Source: Gammaproteobacteria bacterium (GTDB taxonomy: Bacteria; Pseudomonadota; Gammaproteobacteria; Burkholderiales; Nitrosomonadaceae). Taken from it: a stretch of DNA of 64,000 nucleotides. A program made the translations under genes and the position numbers. The stretch is from assembly GCA_030431985.1 (NCBI GenBank), contig JAUIIB010000002.1, forward strand, positions 1 through 64,000. The letters run 5' to 3'. Positions 6,414 through 17,534 of this stretch are shown here, piece by piece (the first letter of the stretch is position 1; every line of letters starts with the position of its first letter). The notes beneath the pieces were generated by a model. That model was not told the origin of the DNA and ran no database searches. It was given only the letters and a program-made list of their open reading frames with translations.

Positions 6414-6662
6414 TTATTCCGTAGGCTGGTGATTGTTAATGTAGTCAATAATGTCTTTCACACAGTGAAAATCTTTAACTTCTTCATCATCAAAAGTAAC
6501 ACCAAACTCTTCTTCAGCATCAAATAACAGCTGTACTCTGTCCATGGAATCGAGACCCAGCTCCTCAAATTCAGAAGCGGCATTGATTACCGATGCATCC
6601 ACATCTTCAATTTTTGATGCGATGAACTCTATCACTTTTTGTTCGATATTTTCTGTGTCCAT
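6414..6662 (-). CDS. Acyl carrier protein, accessory copy
   Basis: This 82-residue acidic acyl carrier protein has the phosphopantetheine attachment Ser39 in the motif LGLDSMD. Most housekeeping AcpP proteins read DSLD at this point. It lies 20 bp downstream of a KAS II gene on the same strand, so the two are probably co-transcribed. The order (synthase first, carrier second) is the reverse of the usual acpP-fabF order of the main fab cluster, and no fabD, fabG or fabH is adjacent. This suggests a dedicated second pair, although it could be the only acpP if the rest of the pathway sits elsewhere. An ACP function is clear; the end product is unknown. Confidence 0.88.
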   Translation of the reverse strand: MDTENIEQKVIEFIASKIEDVDASVINAASEFEELGLDSMDRVQLLFDAEEEFGVTFDDEEVKDFHCVKDIIDYINNHQPTE

Positions 6663-6682
6663 ATTTGATTTTCGTCTTTAAT

Positions 6683-7900
6683 TTAAGGAGTTGTAAAAAC
6701 GAGGCTGACATTATTACCGCCAAATCCGAATGCATTGCATAATGCTGTGTGTGGTGTTTTTTTGCATGCTTTTATGGGTGTATAGTCAAGATCGCATTCC
6801 GGGTCTGCTTTGTCTAAATTAATGGTCGGGTGGATCATGCCAGTTTGCAAAGATTTAATTGCGGCAATACTACCGATTGCTGCTGAGGCACCAATTGTAT
6901 GCCCAATTAATGATTTTGTAGCGCTAATAGAAACATGTGTTGCGTGTTTGCCTAAGACACGTTTAATTGCTTGGGTTTCGACGACATCTCCAAGCGGCGT
7001 AGACGTTGCATGTGCATTAATATAATCAATCGTGTCAAATGTTATTCCGGCATCCTGTATAGCTGCTTCCATTGCTGCAACTTGCCCTTCTACGTCAGGT
7101 GCTACAATGTGTGCTGCATCACAGGTGCATCCGTAACCGGCCAGTCTTGCATAAATCTGGGCTCCGCGCCGCTGTGCTGTATCTTCTTTCTCCAGTATCA
7201 GGATACCAGCGCCTTCGCCCATTACGAATCCGTCGCGGCCGATTGAAAATGGACGTGAAGCACGGTGCGGATTGTCGTTAAAACCCGTAGACAACGCAAA
7301 CAATGCTTCAAAACCAGAGATGGTTAGTGGTAAAACGCATGCCTCGGCACCGCCTGCAATTACAGCATCTGCCTTACCAGTACGTAACAAATCAAGTCCC
7401 ATACCAATTGCGTTGCCTGCAGAGGAGCAAGCTGTGCTGTAAGTCAGGTTAATGCCTTTTAAACCATATTCTGCAGCGATCCACGCTGCTGCGGAATTTG
7501 CCATGGTGCGCGGAACAGTAAAAGGTGGAATCGATCGTTTTTGAAGTTTACGCTCGGCAGATGATTCAAATGTACTGTAACCACCCATTCCGGAACCCAG
7601 ACTAACCCCAAGGCGGTGGGGTTCATAGAATTCCAGGTTGCCTGCATCCTTCATTGCCTGGTGAGTTGCATGTAAAGCGAATTGTGTGAACCGATCAGTT
7701 TGCTCAATTTGCTTTGTCGATAAAAAAGTCTTGGGGTCGAAGTCGTTAACCTGCCCTGCTATTTTTGAACGGTGTTTTGATGTGTCAAAGCATTGAATGG
7801 AACTGATTCCGCTTTTGCCGCTGATGGCCGCATCCCAAAATTGTTTAATGCTCGAGCCAATTGGTGAAACAACTCCCATTCCGGTAACAACAATGTGCAT
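6683..7900 (-). CDS. fabF: 3-oxoacyl-[acyl-carrier-protein] synthase II (FabF type)
   Basis: This 405-residue condensing enzyme extends acyl-ACP with malonyl-ACP. The Cys-His-His catalytic set is visible: the nucleophile in TACSSAG (about residue 160), HATSTPLGD (about 300) and KSLIGHTIGA (about 330). The C-terminal NAFGFGGNN segment is also typical. Length is normal for FabF (about 410). It begins with MHIVVTGMGVVSPIG and precedes the ACP gene by 20 bp. The partner ACP and the absence of other fab genes leave open a role outside primary fatty acid synthesis, such as a specialised lipid. KAS I (FabB) is a less likely alternative. Confidence 0.9.
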   Translation of the reverse strand: MHIVVTGMGVVSPIGSSIKQFWDAAISGKSGISSIQCFDTSKHRSKIAGQVNDFDPKTFLSTKQIEQTDRFTQFALHATHQAMKDAGNLEFYEPHRLGVSLGSGMGGYSTFESSAERKLQKRSIPPFTVPRTMANSAAAWIAAEYGLKGINLTYSTACSSAGNAIGMGLDLLRTGKADAVIAGGAEACVLPLTISGFEALFALSTGFNDNPHRASRPFSIGRDGFVMGEGAGILILEKEDTAQRRGAQIYARLAGYGCTCDAAHIVAPDVEGQVAAMEAAIQDAGITFDTIDYINAHATSTPLGDVVETQAIKRVLGKHATHVSISATKSLIGHTIGASAAIGSIAAIKSLQTGMIHPTINLDKADPECDLDYTPIKACKKTPHTALCNAFGFGGNNVSLVFTTP

Positions 7901-8106: not shown

Positions 8107-8146
8107 GCCTTGCAACATAGCTGGTCTTCTAACCATGCTGCAAGGC
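8107..8146. repeat. 8-bp inverted repeat downstream of the copper operon
   Basis: GCCTTGCA (8107-8114) and TGCAAGGC (8139-8146) are perfect reverse complements around a 24-base loop, which itself contains a short TGGT/ACCA pairing. It lies 41 bp past the stop codon of the histidine-rich protein gene (minus strand) and upstream of fabF. There is no T run, so a terminator role is only possible. Confidence 0.35.
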
Positions 8147-8186: not shown

Positions 8187-9281
8187 TTAATTGTCGGCTT
8201 CCTTTTCTCTTTTCTTTCTTAGCGCGACTATATTCGCAAATAGTGGTGCGCAAGTAACACCGAATAATAGTCCAATGAGTATCATGCCGGAGAAAGGCAA
8301 GTTATTGCTGAAAAAATCCGTCACTTGTTGGGTTGTCGATTGACTGTCCTTTTCATTGTTACCGCCATCATTTGTGTCTTCAGTTAATTTCCCGGGTTTG
8401 TATATGTCATTAATGACATAGGGCGTTAAACCGGGAATACTCGGAATATCTTCACCGCCGTTGCCAACAACAAGTTGTGCTTTCATCCCTTTTTCCATAT
8501 GTTGTGCAATGTCGCAGTGTACAAGATAAGTTTCATCTGCTGCAGGAACGATCATTGTGCCGGAAATTTTTCTAGGTCCGGTGGATTCCAAGTGGAACAT
8601 GCCTAGTTTATAGAGATAACGCGGTAAACCGTGCATCATAAATTGATGTCTGACTTCATCTTCATTAATAAAGTGCCAGGTAATTTTTGAGCATGGCTCG
8701 ACTTTCCACTGTTGTTCATCAAACGCAAAAGCCAGCCCCGGAAAATTTTTGGCATATTTTGCTCCAGCTTTGACAGTAATCTCGATTTCTTGCGAAATAC
8801 TGGAACAACTACTGGGCAGTTTGTCAAAGTTTTGGCCCATAATCATACCGCCCTCGTGATCCATGATATGGCTGTCGTCGTGATGATGGTGGTGGTCGCC
8901 GCGATGGCCTGAATGTGAGTCACCATCATCATGCAACATGATGTGATCGCCTGGGGTATCCATAAGATGATCGTCTCCATGCATCATGCCGCTATGATCA
9001 TCGCCATCATCTTCTTGATTGCGTTCATGCATACTGTGATCCATGTCGTGCCCGGCATGATCGGAATGGCCTCGATGGTCTGTATCATCATTATTTTGAC
9101 CACTTTCATGTGCACTATGATCCATAACGTGATCTCTATGATCTGAATGATCATTACTATCATCTTGGTTATTGTGCTCCATGTTGTCGTGTTCGCTGTG
9201 GTCAGAATGCTCCTGTGCATAGGCAAAAGTAGCAAACACAACCATGCACGATACTATAATAATAAGAAACTTCTTAGTCAT
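8187..9281 (-). CDS. Histidine-rich periplasmic cupredoxin with C-terminal membrane anchor
   Basis: This is a 364-residue protein that probably binds copper outside the cytoplasm. A signal peptide (1-22, ending AYA) is followed by about 125 residues dominated by Asp, His, Met and Gly, with 29 histidines including a run of five. A cupredoxin-like domain follows (about 160-275), with a complete set of candidate type 1 copper ligands: H212, C256, H261 and M266. After a hydrophilic linker comes one membrane helix (about 330-353) and a basic cytoplasmic end. The start overlaps the stop of the upstream multicopper oxidase by 8 bp, so the two are translated together. The His-rich part suggests copper storage or scavenging; the blue-copper domain suggests electron transfer to or from the oxidase. 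I do not recognise a named homologue. Confidence 0.82.
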   Translation of the reverse strand: MTKKFLIIIVSCMVVFATFAYAQEHSDHSEHDNMEHNNQDDSNDHSDHRDHVMDHSAHESGQNNDDTDHRGHSDHAGHDMDHSMHERNQEDDGDDHSGMMHGDDHLMDTPGDHIMLHDDGDSHSGHRGDHHHHHDDSHIMDHEGGMIMGQNFDKLPSSCSSISQEIEITVKAGAKYAKNFPGLAFAFDEQQWKVEPCSKITWHFINEDEVRHQFMMHGLPRYLYKLGMFHLESTGPRKISGTMIVPAADETYLVHCDIAQHMEKGMKAQLVVGNGGEDIPSIPGLTPYVINDIYKPGKLTEDTNDGGNNEKDSQSTTQQVTDFFSNNLPFSGMILIGLLFGVTCAPLFANIVALRKKREKEADN

Positions 9282-10989
9282 TGGTAGTACTCCCTTTTTT
9301 ACCTTTTAGGCGGGATAATGTTTCGGAGGCGATGTTAATCGCATATTGTCTTCTGACAATGATTAAATAAAGCAAAATACCTAAAACAAATCCGCCGATC
9401 AGGTTGATTACAGCAGTGCGTGTTTCAGGATTCATCCCGGCCAGAGCATCGGGTTCTCCAAGTGTTCCTGTATTATCAAGATCTTGCCATATCGGAAATT
9501 TTCGAGCATGAAATTCCTGCGTGAAATATTTGCTAATATCTACTCCGAGGCCTTTGGGTAAACCAATTTCGTTCTGATAGTTTTTATAAACAACTACGCT
9601 GACATTGCCTCCTGGATTCATGCCATTGTTAGTAATGCCTTTTTCCCTGTGATCATGAAACAACCAGATTCCGTCACCGTAACTGTGTAACCCGTCATTT
9701 GTCGTGTTGAGTGTCAAATCCAGCCGTTGAGCTGGTGCGAGATGATAAACATCGCGGGTAATCTGTGCCATGGGATTATGTTCTACACCATCGTAATGCG
9801 TAATTGTTGCCTTGTGACCGTGTGTGTGTAGCGCAATTGATTCACTGGATGTATTGGCAACACGTAGTTTGATTTTTTGATCCGGTTCGGCAAACACTAC
9901 TGACGATCTAAGTGTGTACGGAAACGATACACCGTTCAATGTGTAGTAATCTTCTGTTGAATCGGTAATATCGTACAGGCGATTCATGTCTCTCGCGATT
10001 AATCGCGGATCATTATATTTTTGAATGATTTCATGTAGCTCTTTATCCATGGCGTGATAGTGCAGGTCAAATTCCTCATCAAACTCTTCCTGAATCGCTA
10101 CAGAAGGATAGCGCACATGCCCGCCACCGACATTCAGTGTTTGTAGCCAGTTGTTAGGGCGGTTTTCTTCGACCACGATCATGCCGACCAGTCCCATAGC
10201 GAGATGGGTATGTGTTTGTACATGACAGTGGTAGAGCATGGTTCCAGCGTGACGGGGTTGGAATTGATAAACGCGGCGTTCGCCGGGCATGAGGAACATT
10301 TCGCTGGTTTGTGGAACACCGTCACCACCGCTGATCTGGCTGTCAGCGTGCGTAAACGGGTGATCAACACCGTGTAGGTGGATTGTGTGAGGCAAATAGT
10401 GTGTATTCTCAAGAACAATCTGGACGATATCGCCAACTTCCACCCGAATTACAGGTGAAGGTAGTCGCAGCAGCGGATTTGCGCGCATACTTTCGAAATT
10501 TTCAGTTGACATACCACTTGTCTTGGGCGCAAAAACCCATGCTCCCGGTTGTATGCCCGGGGCGATATCGAACGTTGGGATGAGGCCTTCAAAATCAGGT
10601 GTACGACCGTTCAGCTCAATAACTTCCAGTTTAATAGTGATACGATCTGGGTCACCATCTCCATCCATGTCATCTGTTTTAATGATGGTGTCAGGGGACA
10701 GGTTAGTCTCCATCAGTGTTCCCATCGAAATATTATTGGTTCCTTTGACTGCTGCGGCAATCAAAGCCGGGTTATCAGGTTCGCAGATGTTGGATTCACG
10801 AACTTTGACACCCTCAATAATCTGGGCTTTACGCCAGGACGAGGCCATTTTCGGGTCACATATCGGTTCTGCATTTAATGCTGCAGTATCAACTTTTACT
10901 GTTTTAGGCAACTTCAATGACGACTGGGCAACTACGGGAAACGTAATGCTACAGGCCGCTAAAATAGCCACAAGATAATGGATCGGCAT
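9274..10989 (-). CDS. Two-domain multicopper oxidase with C-terminal membrane helix
   Basis: This 571-residue secreted multicopper oxidase has a signal peptide at 1-21. Four HxH motifs that would build the trinuclear copper centre are visible: H204-L-H206, H254-C-H256, H388-T-H390 and H445-D-H447. The type 1 site HCHxxxHxxxxM (254-265) lies in the first cupredoxin domain. The last motif lacks Cys, so there is no second type 1 site. This is the topology of type C two-domain oxidases, unlike three-domain laccases or CopA. An insertion at 107-113 reads DMDGDGD, like an EF-hand calcium loop. A membrane helix (about 526-545) with a basic tail anchors the C-terminus. The natural substrate (Cu(I), Mn(II), NO or phenolics) is not evident. 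It is the first gene of an operon with the His-rich cupredoxin. Confidence 0.88.
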   Translation of the reverse strand: MPIHYLVAILAACSITFPVVAQSSLKLPKTVKVDTAALNAEPICDPKMASSWRKAQIIEGVKVRESNICEPDNPALIAAAVKGTNNISMGTLMETNLSPDTIIKTDDMDGDGDPDRITIKLEVIELNGRTPDFEGLIPTFDIAPGIQPGAWVFAPKTSGMSTENFESMRANPLLRLPSPVIRVEVGDIVQIVLENTHYLPHTIHLHGVDHPFTHADSQISGGDGVPQTSEMFLMPGERRVYQFQPRHAGTMLYHCHVQTHTHLAMGLVGMIVVEENRPNNWLQTLNVGGGHVRYPSVAIQEEFDEEFDLHYHAMDKELHEIIQKYNDPRLIARDMNRLYDITDSTEDYYTLNGVSFPYTLRSSVVFAEPDQKIKLRVANTSSESIALHTHGHKATITHYDGVEHNPMAQITRDVYHLAPAQRLDLTLNTTNDGLHSYGDGIWLFHDHREKGITNNGMNPGGNVSVVVYKNYQNEIGLPKGLGVDISKYFTQEFHARKFPIWQDLDNTGTLGEPDALAGMNPETRTAVINLIGGFVLGILLYLIIVRRQYAINIASETLSRLKGKKGSTTND

Positions 10990-11466
10990 TTTTTATGTAC
11001 CTTTCTGAGGTTGTTTTATCTAACGTGAATGATTGTTTCGTTCAAGCAACGATGAAATTTAGAATTAACAGTTATTAATGCTCTCAAGAGTCGTGAGTTA
11101 ATGAAAAGTTTCCTAAATTTCTCTTTTTGCTTTTATTATCTGGCGTTCGAAAATTATGTTATGTTTGTTGTTTTATGTAGTGGCAGAGCACTACTGGAAT
11201 ATGTGCAGTTCAACAGTTAACAGTTTTTTATGTAACTCGTTCTTTGCCCATGAGTCCTTGTTCTTTTTTCATGAGTCACGCGGTGAAAACGCAACTCACA
11301 TCCTTTTTCATTATACAGAACCATCTTGGCCATATGAAAGCATTTCCTTTAGTTCCGGGTGGTATTCTGAACCGGTATTTGATGGGAAGGTATTGGGGAT
11401 AATTTGAATAGCTAACTCCGTTGAATTATATAGATTAACGTCGAATTACAATTTATCAGCAAATTA
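10990..11466. other. Divergent intergenic region between copper oxidase and RND operons
   Basis: This 477-bp region must hold the promoters of the leftward copper operon and the rightward efflux operon. I see no convincing gene in it: an open frame at 11156-11407 has a random-looking product and no ribosome site. The only ordered element noted is a direct repeat at 11249-11277, listed separately. Confidence 0.55.
11249..11277. promoter_or_regulatory. Direct repeat CATGAGTC x2, possible operator
   Basis: CATGAGTC occurs at 11249-11256 and again at 11270-11277. The copies are 21 bp apart, two helical turns, so a dimeric regulator could contact both on one face. It lies about 190 bp upstream of the RND adaptor gene. 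No regulator gene is adjacent, and chance recurrence is possible. Confidence 0.25.
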
Positions 11467-12600
11467 ATGTACAAAATTTTTGTTTTAGTGTTGGCTTGCA
11501 TTGTGCAGCTGGGTCTGTATTCCTGTGGTGATGTTGATACTTCTGGAAATGAGAAACCCATGCCACCGTTGCCTGTAGGCGTGTTAGCGGTTAAATCGGT
11601 TAATATGCATCTTAGCACAGAGACTATCGCACAAACTGAAGGTGCTAAAGCGATTGAAATTCGTCCTAGAGTCGGCGGTATCGTATTAAAACGGTATTAT
11701 CATGAGGGTATGCCGGTAACGGCGGGTGAACCGCTGTTTTTGATCGATCCCGAACCGTTTCAAAAGGCTCTGGATGAGGTTAAGGCTGCTTTTCTTGAAC
11801 AGAGCATTCGTGTGATCAAGGCAAGAGACGAAAAAATACGCCAGGAAAAGTTAATTGTAGAAAATTTTGTCAGCAAAAAGTCTTACGACAATACAGTAAC
11901 AGATTTAATGTTAACCGAGGCTTCGTTGCGTGCGCTGAAAGCACGTGTCAAACAGGCACAGCTGGATTTGTCATATACAACGGTCAGAGCGCCGATTAGC
12001 GGTATTACCGGGCGTTCACAGATTTCTGAAGGGGCATTGGTTGCTGCAAACAGCAGTGTATTGACAACACTGACACAAGTATCGCCCATTTGGGTGCGGT
12101 TTAGCTTTTCAGATAATGAACTGGCCCGTTTTAATGGACGATTGAATGAAAACAATATTGATGAAGTTATTTTGATTTTACCCAATGGTGAGGAATATGA
12201 TGGACGCGGACATATTAATTTTGCCGCAAGTGAGATTGATCCATTGATTGGAACGCAGCAATTAAGGGCAACTTTTGATAATCCAAATCAACAGTTGATG
12301 CCTGGCCAATTTGTGCGCGTACGGGTTATTTCAAAAAAAACCGATAGTGTTTTTGTCTTGCCCCAGGTAGCCGTGTTGACATCCGACTTAGGGCGCTTTG
12401 TTTATGTTGTTGATGATAAAAACGTAGTTACTATACGCCCGATTACAGTCGGTGAGTGGTTTGGTAAAGACTGGATTATCCTGGATGGATTGCAAAATGG
12501 GGACCGTGTCGTTGTTAACAACTTAATACGTTTAGGTCCTGGAATGACCGTCGCCCCTGAATTGCTCGAAGCATCTGAAGTTCTGTCTCTTAAACATTGA
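11467..12600 (+). CDS. RND efflux periplasmic adaptor (membrane fusion) lipoprotein
   Basis: This 377-residue member of the AcrA/MexA family links an inner membrane RND pump to an outer membrane channel. The N-terminus has a lipobox ending in LYSC (Cys20), so the mature protein is probably lipid-anchored. The lipoyl half-motifs flank a helical hairpin (about 95-160). The segments EIRPRVGGIV and RAPISGITGRSQISEG are diagnostic of the family. The pump gene follows after 43 bp. No TolC-type channel gene is adjacent, so the channel must be encoded elsewhere. The substrate is unknown. Confidence 0.93.
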   Translation: MYKIFVLVLACIVQLGLYSCGDVDTSGNEKPMPPLPVGVLAVKSVNMHLSTETIAQTEGAKAIEIRPRVGGIVLKRYYHEGMPVTAGEPLFLIDPEPFQKALDEVKAAFLEQSIRVIKARDEKIRQEKLIVENFVSKKSYDNTVTDLMLTEASLRALKARVKQAQLDLSYTTVRAPISGITGRSQISEGALVAANSSVLTTLTQVSPIWVRFSFSDNELARFNGRLNENNIDEVILILPNGEEYDGRGHINFAASEIDPLIGTQQLRATFDNPNQQLMPGQFVRVRVISKKTDSVFVLPQVAVLTSDLGRFVYVVDDKNVVTIRPITVGEWFGKDWIILDGLQNGDRVVVNNLIRLGPGMTVAPELLEASEVLSLKH

Positions 12601-12643
12601 TACATATTGTTACCGTATGCAGATACAGGCGATTTTAAGATAA

Positions 12644-15600
12644 ATGGCTAAGTTCTTTATTACACGCCCGATCTTTGCATCGGTTTTATCGATAATAATT
12701 GTGCTTGCTGGTATCGCGGCCGTGGTTCAGCTGCCGATTGCTCAGTATCCGCAAATCACGCCACCGGTTGTTCAGGTAACCGCTCGATTTCCGGGAGCCA
12801 GCGCTGAAACATTGATTAAAACGGTCGCTGCGCCAATCGAAGAGCAATTAAGTGGTGTGGACGATTTGTTGTACTTTAATTCGAGTGCCGATTCGAGCGG
12901 GCAGCTTACCATAACCGTGACATTTGAAATCGGAACGGATGTCGACCTCGCCACATTCAATATCAGCAATCGTGTAAATACGGCTTTATCGCGTTTGCCA
13001 GATGAAGTCAGGCGCTCAGGAATCACTATACAGAAGCGAGCCAATGATTTGTTGCTTGTTTTTGCAGTAACGTCATCAGATAAAGCGCATACCCCACTCT
13101 TTCTGAGTAATTTTATCACTAATCATTTTCTGGATGAATTAAAGCGTACAGAAGGTGTTGGTGAAGCGCGTATTTTTGGATCGCAGGATTATTCAATGCG
13201 CATTTGGCTACAACCCACTAGAATGGCACAGTTGGGTATAACTACCAGCGATATTGCCTCGGCGATTCGCGCGCAAAATGCACAGTATGCTGCTGGGAAG
13301 ATTGGCCAGGAACCTGCGGCAGTGGATCAACAACTGGTCTATACCGTTACTGCAAAAGGACGGCTGGTCGAGGCAGAAGATTTTGGCAATATTATTTTAC
13401 GGGCTGACGGGCAGCGCGGCGTATTGCAACTGAAAGACATTGCGCGGATTGAACTGGGTGCGCAGCAATACAATATACAAAATCTTTTGAACGGCGAGCC
13501 GGGCGTTGGCATCGGTATTTTTCTGCAAACAGGCGCGAATGCGTTAGATACAGCAGCTGCAATCAAATCTAAAATGGAAGCGCTGCAGTCGACATTTCCA
13601 GATGGCATTCAATACGTTTTACCTTACGATACAAGCGATTTTGTCAAAGCTTCAATCTGGGAGGTAGTTAAAACGCTGCTAGAAGCAATGATATTAGTTG
13701 TTTTTGTAGTTTATCTTTTTTTGCAAAGCTGGCGTGCAACGATTATTCCGATTATAGCAGTGCCTATTTCCCTGATCGGCACATTTGCGGGATTGTGGCT
13801 ACTGGGTTACTCGGTCAATACGATGACATTGTTTGCTATGGTGTTGTCCATCGGAATTGTCGTTGATGACGCTATCGTTGTGCTGGAGAATGTTGAGCGA
13901 CTGATAACCGAGGAGAAACTGACACCTGTAAATGCAGCGATTAAGGCCATGCAGCAGGTTTCAAGTGCGGTGGTTGCAATGACATTGGTATTAGTTGCGG
14001 TTTTTTTGCCTGTGGCCTTTCTGGGAGGTATGGCGGGCGAATTATATCGTCAATTTGCGGTTACTGTTGCAGTAGCAGGGGTAATATCCGGGATTGTTGC
14101 ATTGACGCTTTCGCCTACGTTGTGTGCTTTAATGTTGCATTCAGCACAGCATCATGGCGCATTCTTCGAGTGGTTCAATCGCGTATTTAATCGGTTGCGG
14201 GATTTTTATGTGGCGATGGTAGGTGCTGCAATTCGACATGCGCTGATCAGTGTATTGGTATTTTTAGCCTTTATTGGCGGAATAGGGTATCTGCTCAATG
14301 TAATACCAGGCAGTCTTGTACCCTCTGAAGATCAAGGCTATGTGATCACTGCAGTAATCTTGCCGGATAACGCGGCTTTGTCACGAACCATTGCCACAAC
14401 GGATGCCGTGCGTACCGAAATTGCAAAGAATCCGGATGTTGCTTTTCAATTTGCGGTAAACGGACTCGACTTTATCGGCGGCGGCAATAAAACGAATGTG
14501 TCAACTGTATTTACGCGGATGACCGATTGGTCGGAACGTACCACAACTGCGGACGAACTGGTCAATCAATTGTTCGTTGCTGGAGCTAAACAAACGGATG
14601 GGCTTGCTATTGCATTTAATCCGCCAGCTATTCGAGGTTTAGGTAGTACGGGAGGCTTTGAACTTTATGTTCAAAGTCGAACAAATACCGATCCCCGGTT
14701 GTTGGCAAAAGTAGTCGATAATTTCTTGGGTGCACTCAAACAGGAACCATTGTTGGCCTCAGTCAATACATTTTATCGTTCAGGGGTACCGCAGTTTTTT
14801 GTCTCTGTCGATGAAGCCAAAGCGATATCACAAGGCGTTGCCATCGCTGAGATTTATGAAACGCTTCAGAGCACGATGGGTTCGCTTTATATCAATGATT
14901 TTAATCGGGCTGGACGCACTTATCGCGTTCAGTTACAAGCGGAAGCAGCTTACCGCATGAAGCCTGAGGATATCGGAAAAGTATACGTGCGTTCCAATTC
15001 AGGATTGATGATACCTTTATCTGCGCTAGTGCAGATCAAACAGATTATCGGTGCAGAACAACTGGAACGTTTTAATGGCTTGTTGTCCGCCAAAGTAATC
15101 GGTAATGGTATTCCCGGCTTGAGTTCAGGTGAAGCGATCAAGCTTGTGGAGGATGTGGCCGATCGGGTTTTGCCGGATGGCTATCAAATCGCCTGGACAG
15201 GTAAAGATTTCCAAGAAAAAAGAACAGGTTCGGCGGCGGTATTTGCCTTCAGTCTGGCTATTATTATGGTATTTCTAATTCTGGCTGCACAGTTTGAAAC
15301 CTGGGCGTTGCCGCTGGCTGTTATTATGGCGGTACCATTTGCCATGGCTGGCGCGTTGGTTGCTGTATTGCTACGGGATATGTCCAATGATATTTATTTT
15401 CAAATTGGTATGGTGACATTAATCGGTTTGGCGGCTAAAAATGCGATATTATTAGTAGAATTTGCAAATCAGAAAATGAAAGCGGGTATGGATGCTAAGC
15501 GTGCCGCAATTGAATCTGCACATCTACGTTTTCGGCCTATCGTGATGACCTCAATGGCGTTTATTCTGGGTGTTGTGCCTTTAGTCGTTGCAACGGGTGC

Positions 15601-15736
15601 GGGTTCAGCCGCACGGCAATCAATGGGGACCGGTGTTTTCGGCGGTATGATATTGGCTGCATTTGTTGCCACAGTTTTTGTGCCATTGTTTTTTTCATGG
15701 TTTGTTTCGAAGCATGTTGCAAATAAGCATGAATAA
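12644..15736 (+). CDS. RND efflux permease, HAE1 (AcrB/MexB) family
   Basis: This 1030-residue proton-driven inner membrane pump is of full family length. It starts with MAKFFITRPIFASVLSIII, the standard first helix of HAE1 permeases. Helix 4 carries the conserved Asp pair in GIVVDDAIVVLENVER, which relays protons. The second repeat has GLAAKNAILLVEFA, as in AcrB. Twelve membrane helices and two large periplasmic loops are expected from the hydrophobic pattern. It is translated with the adaptor upstream. The HAE1 type points to organic compounds such as drugs, dyes or solvents, not metal ions: the metal-type (CusA) pattern is not seen. Confidence 0.95.
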   Translation: MAKFFITRPIFASVLSIIIVLAGIAAVVQLPIAQYPQITPPVVQVTARFPGASAETLIKTVAAPIEEQLSGVDDLLYFNSSADSSGQLTITVTFEIGTDVDLATFNISNRVNTALSRLPDEVRRSGITIQKRANDLLLVFAVTSSDKAHTPLFLSNFITNHFLDELKRTEGVGEARIFGSQDYSMRIWLQPTRMAQLGITTSDIASAIRAQNAQYAAGKIGQEPAAVDQQLVYTVTAKGRLVEAEDFGNIILRADGQRGVLQLKDIARIELGAQQYNIQNLLNGEPGVGIGIFLQTGANALDTAAAIKSKMEALQSTFPDGIQYVLPYDTSDFVKASIWEVVKTLLEAMILVVFVVYLFLQSWRATIIPIIAVPISLIGTFAGLWLLGYSVNTMTLFAMVLSIGIVVDDAIVVLENVERLITEEKLTPVNAAIKAMQQVSSAVVAMTLVLVAVFLPVAFLGGMAGELYRQFAVTVAVAGVISGIVALTLSPTLCALMLHSAQHHGAFFEWFNRVFNRLRDFYVAMVGAAIRHALISVLVFLAFIGGIGYLLNVIPGSLVPSEDQGYVITAVILPDNAALSRTIATTDAVRTEIAKNPDVAFQFAVNGLDFIGGGNKTNVSTVFTRMTDWSERTTTADELVNQLFVAGAKQTDGLAIAFNPPAIRGLGSTGGFELYVQSRTNTDPRLLAKVVDNFLGALKQEPLLASVNTFYRSGVPQFFVSVDEAKAISQGVAIAEIYETLQSTMGSLYINDFNRAGRTYRVQLQAEAAYRMKPEDIGKVYVRSNSGLMIPLSALVQIKQIIGAEQLERFNGLLSAKVIGNGIPGLSSGEAIKLVEDVADRVLPDGYQIAWTGKDFQEKRTGSAAVFAFSLAIIMVFLILAAQFETWALPLAVIMAVPFAMAGALVAVLLRDMSNDIYFQIGMVTLIGLAAKNAILLVEFANQKMKAGMDAKRAAIESAHLRFRPIVMTSMAFILGVVPLVVATGAGSAARQSMGTGVFGGMILAAFVATVFVPLFFSWFVSKHVANKHE

Positions 15737-15833
15737 AACATCGTGTAAATGAATATTAACTGTTCAATAATTTTCGGGTCGATTGTTGCGTGCGATAATT
15801 ATTGTAGGCAGATCTGTTTGCTGGATTTTGGGC

Positions 15834-17534
15834 ATGCGTACGGGTAAAAAAATAGCGGCTTCCGACAAAAAAATACTACAGTCTTTGAGCGGCAGCAATA
15901 TCATCCTAGTAGGCATGATGGGTGCAGGCAAGACAACCATCGGTAAGGCACTTGCCAGTTACACAGGCAAGCGTTTTCTTGACTGCGATCATGAAATTCA
16001 GGAATGTACTGGTGTAAAAATACCGGTAATCTTTGAATTTGAAGGTGAAGCGGGGTTCCGCAAACGCGAAACACAGGCGCTCAAGAAGTTGACATGTCAG
16101 AATAATATTGTTTTGGCGACCGGCGGCGGCGCAGTACTCAGTCATGAAAACCGTATGATGCTGAAACGTAGTGGAATCGTTGTGTATTTACGAGCATCGG
16201 TTAATGATTTGTACCGGCGTACACGGTATGATAGAGACCGGCCGTTACTCAAAACAAACAATTTGCGTGGCAAACTGACTGAAATTTTTGAGCAACGAAA
16301 CAAACTCTATCATGAAACAGCACATATTGTTATTGATACTGCCCGGCAAAATATAAGATCTTTGGTCAAAGAACTGGCTAAGCGGCTGGTTGCTTTTAAA
16401 TTGGCACAACCTACTATTCATACAGAAAATCTTATGCGAACCATCACGGTTGAATTTTCGTCTTCTTCTAAAACGCGAAACTACCCTATTCATATTGGTA
16501 ATGGCATTTTAAGTCAAACAGAACTTATCGCTTCCAGCTTGAAACAAAAACGTGTGGCCATTGTTACAAACCAAACAGTCGCGCCGTTGTATCTTGACAA
16601 ATTGCGCACATCTTTAGACGTAAATGGTGTGCAGTCTATACCGATTATTCTGCCTGATGGCGAGACCTATAAAAATTGGGAAACACTAAATCAAATTTTT
16701 GATGCATTGCTGCAAAACCATTGTGAGCGCACAACAGCTATTCTGGCATTAGGTGGCGGTGTCATCGGTGATCTGACTGGATTTGCGGCTGCTACGTACT
16801 TGCGTGGTGTACCGTTTATTCAGATGCCGACTACGCTTCTGGCACAGGTTGATTCTTCAGTAGGTGGCAAAACCGGCATTAATCATCCCATGGGTAAAAA
16901 CATGGTCGGTGCGTTCTATCAGCCGCGCATGGTGATAACTGACAGTGCAACACTTGACACTTTACCCGATCGTGAATTACGTGCCGGGATAGCAGAGATC
17001 ATTAAGTATGGCTTAATCCGGGATCCAGTTTTTTTTGAATGGTTAGAAAAAAATATACAGCGCCTGCTTGCCCGTGATCCGGTGACGTTGAACGAGGCTA
17101 TTCAACGCAGCTGTGAGAATAAAGCCGAGATCGTGGCAGCTGACGAAAAAGAGAGTGGTGTGCGTACTTTATTAAATTTAGGTCATACCTTCGGACATGC
17201 GATTGAGAATGGTATGGGTTACGGTGTTTGGTTGCATGGAGAAGCGGTAGCGGCTGGAACGGTTATTGCGGCTGATTTGTCCAGACGCATGAAATTAATT
17301 AGCGACGCTGATGTTACGCGGATTCGAGCTATCTTTCAAAAGGCGGGGTTGCCGATTGAAGCGCCAAGCCTTGATCCAGAAAAATATTTTGAATTAATGG
17401 CGCTAGATAAGAAAGTTTCTGCCGGAAAGACGCGGTTTATTGTTCTAAACCGAATTGGTGAGGCGGTAATGCGTGCAGATATTCCACCCGCACTGGTTAC
17501 TGAATCACTAAATGCTTGTATGAAGCATGCATGA
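15834..17534 (+). CDS. aroKB: Fused shikimate kinase / 3-dehydroquinate synthase (AroK-AroB)
   Basis: One continuous frame joins two steps of the shikimate pathway. Residues 1 to about 195 are a shikimate kinase: Walker [10 protein letters not shown] (28-35 region), [22 protein letters not shown] and the lid DRDRPLL. Residues from about 201 to 566 are a complete 3-dehydroquinate synthase: [36 protein letters not shown], and the zinc ligands in the [16 protein letters not shown] and [10 protein letters not shown] segments. In most bacteria these are separate adjacent genes. I start at ATG 15834; a TTG at 15783 is in frame but would add an unsupported extension. A Met at 16434 could start AroB alone, but no good ribosome site precedes it. 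The stop overlaps the next gene by 8 bp. Confidence 0.93.

Follow-up and report, generated by a model that had tools for sequence, protein, structure and literature searches.

Among the closest described relatives of the system considered here are the proteins of the PmoD/AmoD family and the multicopper oxidase genes found near them. PmoD homologues of one class are frequently encoded close to such genes, and all the PmoDs found came from genomes encoding a copper membrane monooxygenase (CuMMO), the functions considered for PmoD being copper loading and electron supply (PMC6189053); without pmoD, growth that relies on the copper enzyme is impaired (PMC6189053, PMC6688271), and a pmoD homologue of M. 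capsulatus that adjoins a multicopper oxidase gene is down-regulated without copper (PMC6688271). These papers and those cited below are quoted from the accessible portions of their text, except for PMC4831470, of which the main text was used. The locus examined here lies in a window of 64,000 nucleotides (positions 1 to 64,000 of contig JAUIIB010000002.1, assembly GCA_030431985.1) from a gammaproteobacterium of the Nitrosomonadaceae, and consists of two minus-strand genes for a multicopper oxidase (hereafter MCO) and a His-rich, membrane-anchored cupredoxin (CUP). As in the published accounts, a PmoD-family gene stands upstream of this MCO in all the methanotroph-type loci analysed (25 of 25); unlike in PMC6189053 and PMC6688271, there is a cupredoxin partner, there is a Nitrosomonas pair, the MCO gene can lie inside CuMMO operons, and the pair in the window has no PmoD gene alongside. 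From sequence comparisons, the pair may be the form taken in Nitrosomonas by a membrane-anchored module that handles copper for CuMMO (ammonia monooxygenase, AMO; particulate methane monooxygenase, pMMO; or a related enzyme), a proposal that we judge to be about evenly poised.

The first-pass annotation of the window, which was made from the sequence alone, had regarded the two genes as the best candidate for an undescribed system. This stands for the MCO-cupredoxin module, of which no description was found, but not for the proximity of PmoD and MCO genes, which is in print (PMC6189053, PMC6688271). No characterised homologue of the pair emerged either from the literature searched, which consisted mostly of papers available without subscription. 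The terms multicopper, copper oxidase and cupredoxin do not occur in the main text of PMC4831470, the source of the M. capsulatus result; the oxidase of that copper-responsive locus is likely a member of this MCO family. The accessible portions of two Nitrosomonas papers (PMC3764937, PMC4940428) do not mention the pair. Two other reports were considered and set aside: a cupredoxin/MCO cluster of Sideroxydans, which by its description has a different gene set (PMC12016527), and two MCO genes with raised expression in N. europaea under phage infection, which are not identified in the accessible text and to which no link could be made (PMC13356812).

Distribution and association with monooxygenases

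Within the GTDB family of the host (125 genomes), MCO and CUP were each found in 69 genomes, all within one of the four genera. Both genes are present in 68 of the 85 Nitrosomonas genomes and neither in 15; the two remaining ones have MCO only, cut by a contig end (G015), or CUP only, 582 bases from a contig start (G072). Close copies are found in records named Nitrosomonas sp. Nm51, N. aestuarii, N. marina, N. oligotropha, N. ureae and N. eutropha, which places the host in that genus. Scanning of named genomes returned 127 relatives of MCO, and the best 80 were analysed as loci, namely 55 of Nitrosomonas type, some of which are labelled just Proteobacteria or Nitrosomonadaceae, and 25 of methanotroph type (Methylomonas, Methyloprofundus, mussel and snail symbionts, metagenome-assembled genomes (MAGs) of Methylococcaceae and a few unlabelled records; 58–67% identity over the best segment). 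CUP is directly downstream of MCO in 79 of the 80 loci, the contig ending inside MCO in the other (L123), so that the adjacency is not due to chance.

The association with CuMMO is best seen in the methanotroph order (the order of genome G284; 201 genomes), where MCO was found in 193 genomes, representing 48 of 48 genera, and PmoB in 176. MCO and PmoB are found together in 176 genomes, MCO without PmoB in 17, PmoB without MCO in none and neither in eight (Fisher p 1.9e-8, uncorrected for kinship); the eight genomes without MCO lack both PmoB (0/8) and CUP (0/8). Inside genus g286, MCO and PmoB are both present in 13 genomes and both absent from five, which resembles the split between Cycloclasticus isolates, without, and Cycloclasticus MAGs, with a hydrocarbon monooxygenase (PMC12510462); that g286 is Cycloclasticus is our guess. 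Among 369 genomes sampled across the class, MCO was detected in 11, PmoB/AmoB in 10 and both in eight (p 9e-13). A phylum sample of 398 genomes yielded three MCO matches (G000, G006 and G1071), and is little informative on the reverse association because it holds no match from the methanotroph order.

The first-pass annotation had also asked whether the two proteins always occur together. As regards presence, CUP was found in all the 72 MCO-positive genomes searched (70 of the methanotroph order plus G158 and G192), but gene order is less constant: outside Nitrosomonas the genes adjoin in at least 37 of the 62 CUP-bearing genomes, out of the 72, for which the place of MCO was listed. The figure is a lower bound since further adjacent pairs were found in G541, G521, G526 and G536. 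Seven loci (L221–L227) carry CUP beside a PmoD-like gene, without MCO. With MCO and CUP split in some genomes, CUP–PmoD pairs lacking MCO and solo MCO paralogues in others, the proteins co-travel more strictly than gene order does. Where open reading frames (ORFs) were called in the loci, the longest non-overlapping ones were retained. This choice missed some genes, such as the L171 CUP and the L131 PmoD-like gene, which were recovered by tblastn.

Gene order, fusion and history

The PmoD-family gene upstream of MCO was detected by tblastn in each of the 25 methanotroph-type loci (cut by a contig end in L153), and in 23 of them as an ORF. The only significant PDB entry retrieved with a profile of this third gene is PmoD (6cpd, E 2.8e-22), and the gene also matches the ORF that immediately follows amoB in Nitrosomonas (L183). 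C40 and C65 are invariant in 11 of 11 sequences, so that both the profile and the CxnC pattern of PmoD/AmoD are present, but the Cx7MxHxnC motif that forms CuA (PMC6189053) is not, the spacing, as read by eye, being Cx9H, Cx10H or Cx8M. In five genomes of four families the genes for CuMMO, PmoD, MCO and CUP are contiguous and on one strand (L176 of G158, L178 of G399, L231 of G536, L232 of G526 and L233 of G521), with pmoAB in all five loci and pmoC in four (it was not seen in L178). The five genomes do not group on the MCO tree, where the arrangement requires five label changes, four of which are forced by well-supported branches; thus, the arrangement is either ancestral or arose repeatedly. 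Similar-looking hydrolase-like genes without Pfam match adjoin CUP in L176 (7668–8603) and L178 (7672–8580).

A different setting is found in G192, in which the PmoD-like, MCO and CUP genes directly follow a cytochrome c oxidase cluster (coxBA, two COX3 and COX4) on the same strand and with short gaps (L179, 8545–16406). This genome, in which PmoB was not found, thus holds a PmoD-family gene, an exception to the statement of PMC6189053 on the origin of PmoDs. The cox context argues for a general supply of copper rather than for monooxygenase chemistry alone.

G1071, which has no PmoB and does not belong to the methanotroph order, carries a divergent MCO (E 6e-113) as part of a single ORF of 669 residues (L202, 9090–11099, minus strand) that continues with a domain resembling CUP (35% identity over 118 residues, E 1e-18) and ends in a CusF domain (PF11604, 49.4 bits, cut-off 27). 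A one-chain arrangement is also found in an archaeal ammonia oxidiser, N. maritimus, whose MCO has a C-terminal cupredoxin domain (PDB 9cck, judged by its title). CusF is an efflux chaperone. That MCO, cupredoxin and CusF can share one chain speaks for joint action and for copper chemistry, but it also supports plain periplasmic copper tolerance, according to which a CueO/CopA-like cuprous oxidase and a copper-binding cupredoxin would be common in CuMMO organisms just because these are exposed to, and store, much copper. The copper oxidase fold and ligand set of MCO and the abundance of His in the Nitrosomonas CUP favour such a function, a copper-responsive neighbour is on record in M. capsulatus (PMC6688271), and a divergent efflux operon of the resistance-nodulation-division (RND) type lies alongside in 16 of the 20 Nitrosomonas loci compared; its permease, however, obtains its best score as a multidrug type. 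Against this, copper stress is general and MCO is found in just 11 of the 369 class genomes; furthermore, inside g286 it is present or absent together with PmoB, and in some genomes it is placed within a CuMMO or cox cluster. Plain tolerance is, on balance, unlikely.

As to the history of the pair, the 18 MCOs of Nitrosomonas fall into a single clade (100/100) among sequences that otherwise come from the methanotroph order, and the tree does not resolve their exact sister. MCO of Nitrosomonas G006 shares 54–62% identity with its counterparts in five CuMMO-bearing genomes, versus 39–45% for AmoB/PmoB in four of the five. These values fit a horizontal transfer of MCO into Nitrosomonas, but a slower evolution of MCO would yield equal numbers.

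The multicopper oxidase

MCO (9274–10989, minus strand; 571 residues) exceeds the cut-offs of both Cu-oxidase_3 (PF07732, 80.6 bits, E 1.2e-22, cut-off 21) and Cu-oxidase_2 (PF07731, 67 bits, E 1.9e-18, cut-off 20.4), which places it in the multicopper oxidase superfamily. The closest solved structures are the two-domain oxidases 3g5w and 2zwn, aligned at residues 175–278 and from 345 on, the former of which we take to be the N. europaea blue copper oxidase. MCO shares with them a build of two cupredoxin domains, of which the first has the type-1 motifs, and a trinuclear site to which both domains contribute. Domain 1 (residues 175–278; 10156–10467, minus strand), delimited from the 3g5w alignment, carries the type-1 ligands H201, C255, H260 and M265, and the HLH and HCH halves of the trinuclear site; domain 2 (residues 345–495; 9505–9957, minus strand) carries the HTH and HDH halves and has no type-1 Cys. 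H201, H204, H206, H254, C255, H256, H260, M265, H388, H390, H445 and H447 are invariant in the 35 aligned relatives (11 Nitrosomonas and 24 methanotroph-type rows), which bears out the earlier assignment of a full ligand set, with the type-1 Cys-His-His-Met and four HxH pairs. The attribution of residues to individual coppers is a putative one that follows the motif spacing of laccases.

Unlike 3g5w and 2zwn, MCO is extended at its N-terminus by about 170 residues, which include a DxDGDG loop, carries a membrane anchor at its C-terminus and has a partner gene for a cupredoxin. No Pfam match was found for residues 1–168; within them, the stretch DMDGDGDPD (residues 107–115; 10645–10671, minus strand) resembles a calcium loop, and with D107, D109, D111, D113 and D115 invariant in 35 of 35 sequences it may bind calcium. 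Hydropathy peaks at about residues 2–21 and 525–546 (the latter at 9352–9417, minus strand) are consistent with an N-terminal signal and a C-terminal membrane helix, as the first-pass annotation had described for both proteins. The structure model of MCO (pLDDT, the predicted local distance difference test, 45.9) was too poor for use.

The failure of the first-pass annotation to match the pair to a named system was also substantiated. Scores remain far below the curated NCBIfam cut-offs for CueO (NF008205, 32.7 bits versus 525) and for CopA/PcoA (TIGR01480, 46.3 bits versus 478.95). Periplasmic copper oxidase chemistry, as in CueO and CopA (PcoA), is plausible for MCO, but these enzymes have three domains, not two. 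The NcgABC system is characterized by the gene order ncgABC-nirK, and no copper nitrite reductase gene was found among the scanned neighbours of the pair, whose order is different. The best solved relative of MCO is, we believe, NcgA-type; MCO was not classified as such because its architecture differs. The score with the copper nitrite reductase NirK model (TIGR02376, 43.9 bits versus a cut-off of 296.3) excludes that assignment too, but this weak likeness is what could be invoked for a role in nitrogen-oxide chemistry, with MCO oxidizing nitric oxide (NO) or hydroxylamine from AMO and hydroxylamine oxidoreductase, or from pMMO acting on ammonia. Such a role is very improbable: MCO retains every His of the trinuclear site, which NirK does not, the operon links are to genes for CuMMO subunits and to cox genes, and the pair is absent from 15 Nitrosomonas and eight sister-genus genomes so that MCO cannot be a universal NO oxidase.

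The cupredoxin

CUP (8187–9281, minus strand; 364 residues) has no Pfam match above cut-off. A search of the PDB with its sequence gave weak matches to tag-bearing constructs only, and one with a profile of its alignment gave none. In the AlphaFold2 model, residues 146–272 (8466–8846, minus strand) adopt a cupredoxin fold (pLDDT by ten-residue block, 71–95) that matches 2aan (E 6.5e-7) and 4hcf (TMt 0.81). The fold is common to the auracyanin-, nitrous oxide reductase (N2OR)- and laccase-type domains, from which CUP differs in lacking a PDB sequence match and in having a His-rich region and a membrane anchor. H212, C256, H261 and M266 do not vary among the 35 relatives aligned, as expected of the complete type 1 copper site proposed for CUP at first pass. 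Hydropathy peaks at about residues 4–23, corresponding to the N-terminal signal, and 333–354 (8220–8285, minus strand), corresponding to the C-terminal membrane helix, for which the model has a helix at 328–363.

Between signal and cupredoxin domain, residues 24–142 (8856–9212, minus strand) form a region rich in His and Asp. The 29 His that had been described as a tract are all there, but not as one run, the longest being of five residues; the region also contains 29 Asp and nine Met, and the whole protein 35 His. It is predicted to be mostly without secondary structure, with low confidence in the model. The region holds 21–31 His in nine Nitrosomonas rows, out of 11, the two that were unmatched by the pattern being left out, as opposed to 3–4 in the 24 methanotroph-type rows; the His-rich part is, therefore, not a general trait and, from the alignment, appears as an expansion in the Nitrosomonas rows only.

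The complete type-1 set of CUP, typical of electron transfer sites, along with the intact trinuclear ligands of MCO and the position of the genes within CuMMO operons and after a cytochrome c oxidase cluster, would also suit a redox branch in which CUP ferries electrons among the quinol/cytochrome pool, the monooxygenase and MCO, with the latter acting as a small O2-reducing sink or in the delivery of reductant, and copper handling being secondary. However, the His/Met-rich segments, the PmoD-family partner and the CusF fusion indicate copper binding, and the pair is missing from at least 12 AmoB-bearing Nitrosomonas genomes, so that it is not an obligate electron route. An electron-transfer role of this kind seems improbable.

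Layout, regulation and neighbouring genes

The two genes overlap by 8 bp (9274–9281, minus strand), as first noted from the ORF calls, and in many relatives MCO and CUP overlap or are separated by a gap of a few bases; translational coupling is likely. A promoter-like element (GGTTCTGTATAAT), in the MCO sense, is found a few hundred bases upstream of MCO; in the window, where it has one match, it reads GGTTCTGTATAATG (11309–11322, minus strand). Its exact 13-base core occurs once per locus in 38 of the 55 Nitrosomonas-type loci and in none of the 25 methanotroph-type ones, and little sequence is conserved across clades between the element and the MCO start. In a sigma-70 scan the number of matches did not exceed that in shuffled sequences. 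A terminator-like hairpin of 16 pairs lies 3′ of CUP (8107–8146, minus strand), with the count of such sites in the region no greater than in shuffles, and an Rfam search around the locus gave no match up to E 0.1.

The divergent RND adaptor and permease genes are at 11467–15736 (plus strand); the four of the 20 Nitrosomonas loci that they do not flank are L067–L070. The scanned neighbours include, besides RND efflux, a carrier protein and ketoacyl synthase, a FadL-type porin and a GGDEF-EAL protein. The carrier protein and ketoacyl synthase, encoded 3′ of the pair (6414–7900, minus strand), have no counterpart in 20 other Nitrosomonas loci. Farther on, a single ORF (15783–17534, plus strand) encodes shikimate kinase fused to 3-dehydroquinate synthase.

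Proposed role

The first-pass annotation envisaged a membrane-tethered redox or copper-storage unit. A conserved and probably tethered pair was indeed found, but the link to CuMMO and to a PmoD-family gene, which points to a likely role, had gone unnoticed. The pair probably helps to supply or service the copper of CuMMO, since it is kept in nearly all related methanotrophs examined and is sometimes inside the CuMMO cluster. The features directly observed are the protein families and their ligands, the linkage of the genes, their joint absence with CuMMO from genomes of the methanotroph order, the operon setting and one fusion. Starting from these, a mechanism can be drawn in which MCO and CUP, judging from their families, would be membrane-anchored, copper-loaded and facing the periplasm. 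MCO would use O2 to oxidize Cu(I) or a different small donor close to the membrane enzyme, and CUP, which has a His/Met-rich part, would hold or relay copper or electrons between MCO, PmoD/AmoD and the monooxygenase. In this way, loading and repair of a copper-hungry membrane enzyme would not involve free Cu(I). The methanotroph-type version would include the PmoD-family protein; in Nitrosomonas, operon-borne AmoD/AmoE would fill the PmoD-like role. A more specific proposal, which we consider doubtful, is that PmoD/AmoD, MCO and CUP form one membrane-bound accessory complex metallating or electrically feeding CuMMO, carried with CuMMO through gammaproteobacterial lineages and acquired by Nitrosomonas minus the PmoD gene.

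Several observations weigh against a copper-handling module serving CuMMO. AmoB is present in 12 of the 15 Nitrosomonas genomes without the pair, which is therefore dispensable for ammonia oxidation as such, and in four of the eight pair-less genomes of a sister genus. No PmoD gene was found by tblastn around the pair in 20 Nitrosomonas loci of 20 kb. A copper regulator, the presence of which nearby had been suggested as a check at first pass, was found neither among 10 further ORFs scanned (651–23593) nor in the two RND genes. In the methanotroph order, 17 genomes have MCO without PmoB; of the 13 of these that were listed, 12 are in at least 240 contigs, but six are estimated to be 98–100% complete, and some may thus truly lack PmoB. 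In the class-wide sample, MCO without PmoB is found in the genome of the window, in G192 and in G312 (87% complete), and PmoB without MCO in G176 and G361. G192, one contig and 99% complete, and G1071, 100% complete, are near-complete genomes with MCO and no PmoB. As for the genome of the window (91% complete), PmoB was not matched, presumably because of an assembly gap; a search of it for the archaeal AmoA family, the wrong family for this host, gave no match. Finally, solo MCO paralogues with no CUP nearby are found in other neighbourhoods of methanotroph-order genomes (L204, L206, L209, L214, L215 and L220).

Concluding remarks

The two- or three-gene module offers concrete and testable candidates for the copper loading of pMMO and AMO and for their physiological redox partners. 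It is present in 193 of the 201 methanotroph-order genomes, absent there only where PmoB is absent, and sometimes part of the CuMMO operon itself. Methane and ammonia oxidation, which the module may serve, bear on the fluxes of methane, nitrite and N2O.

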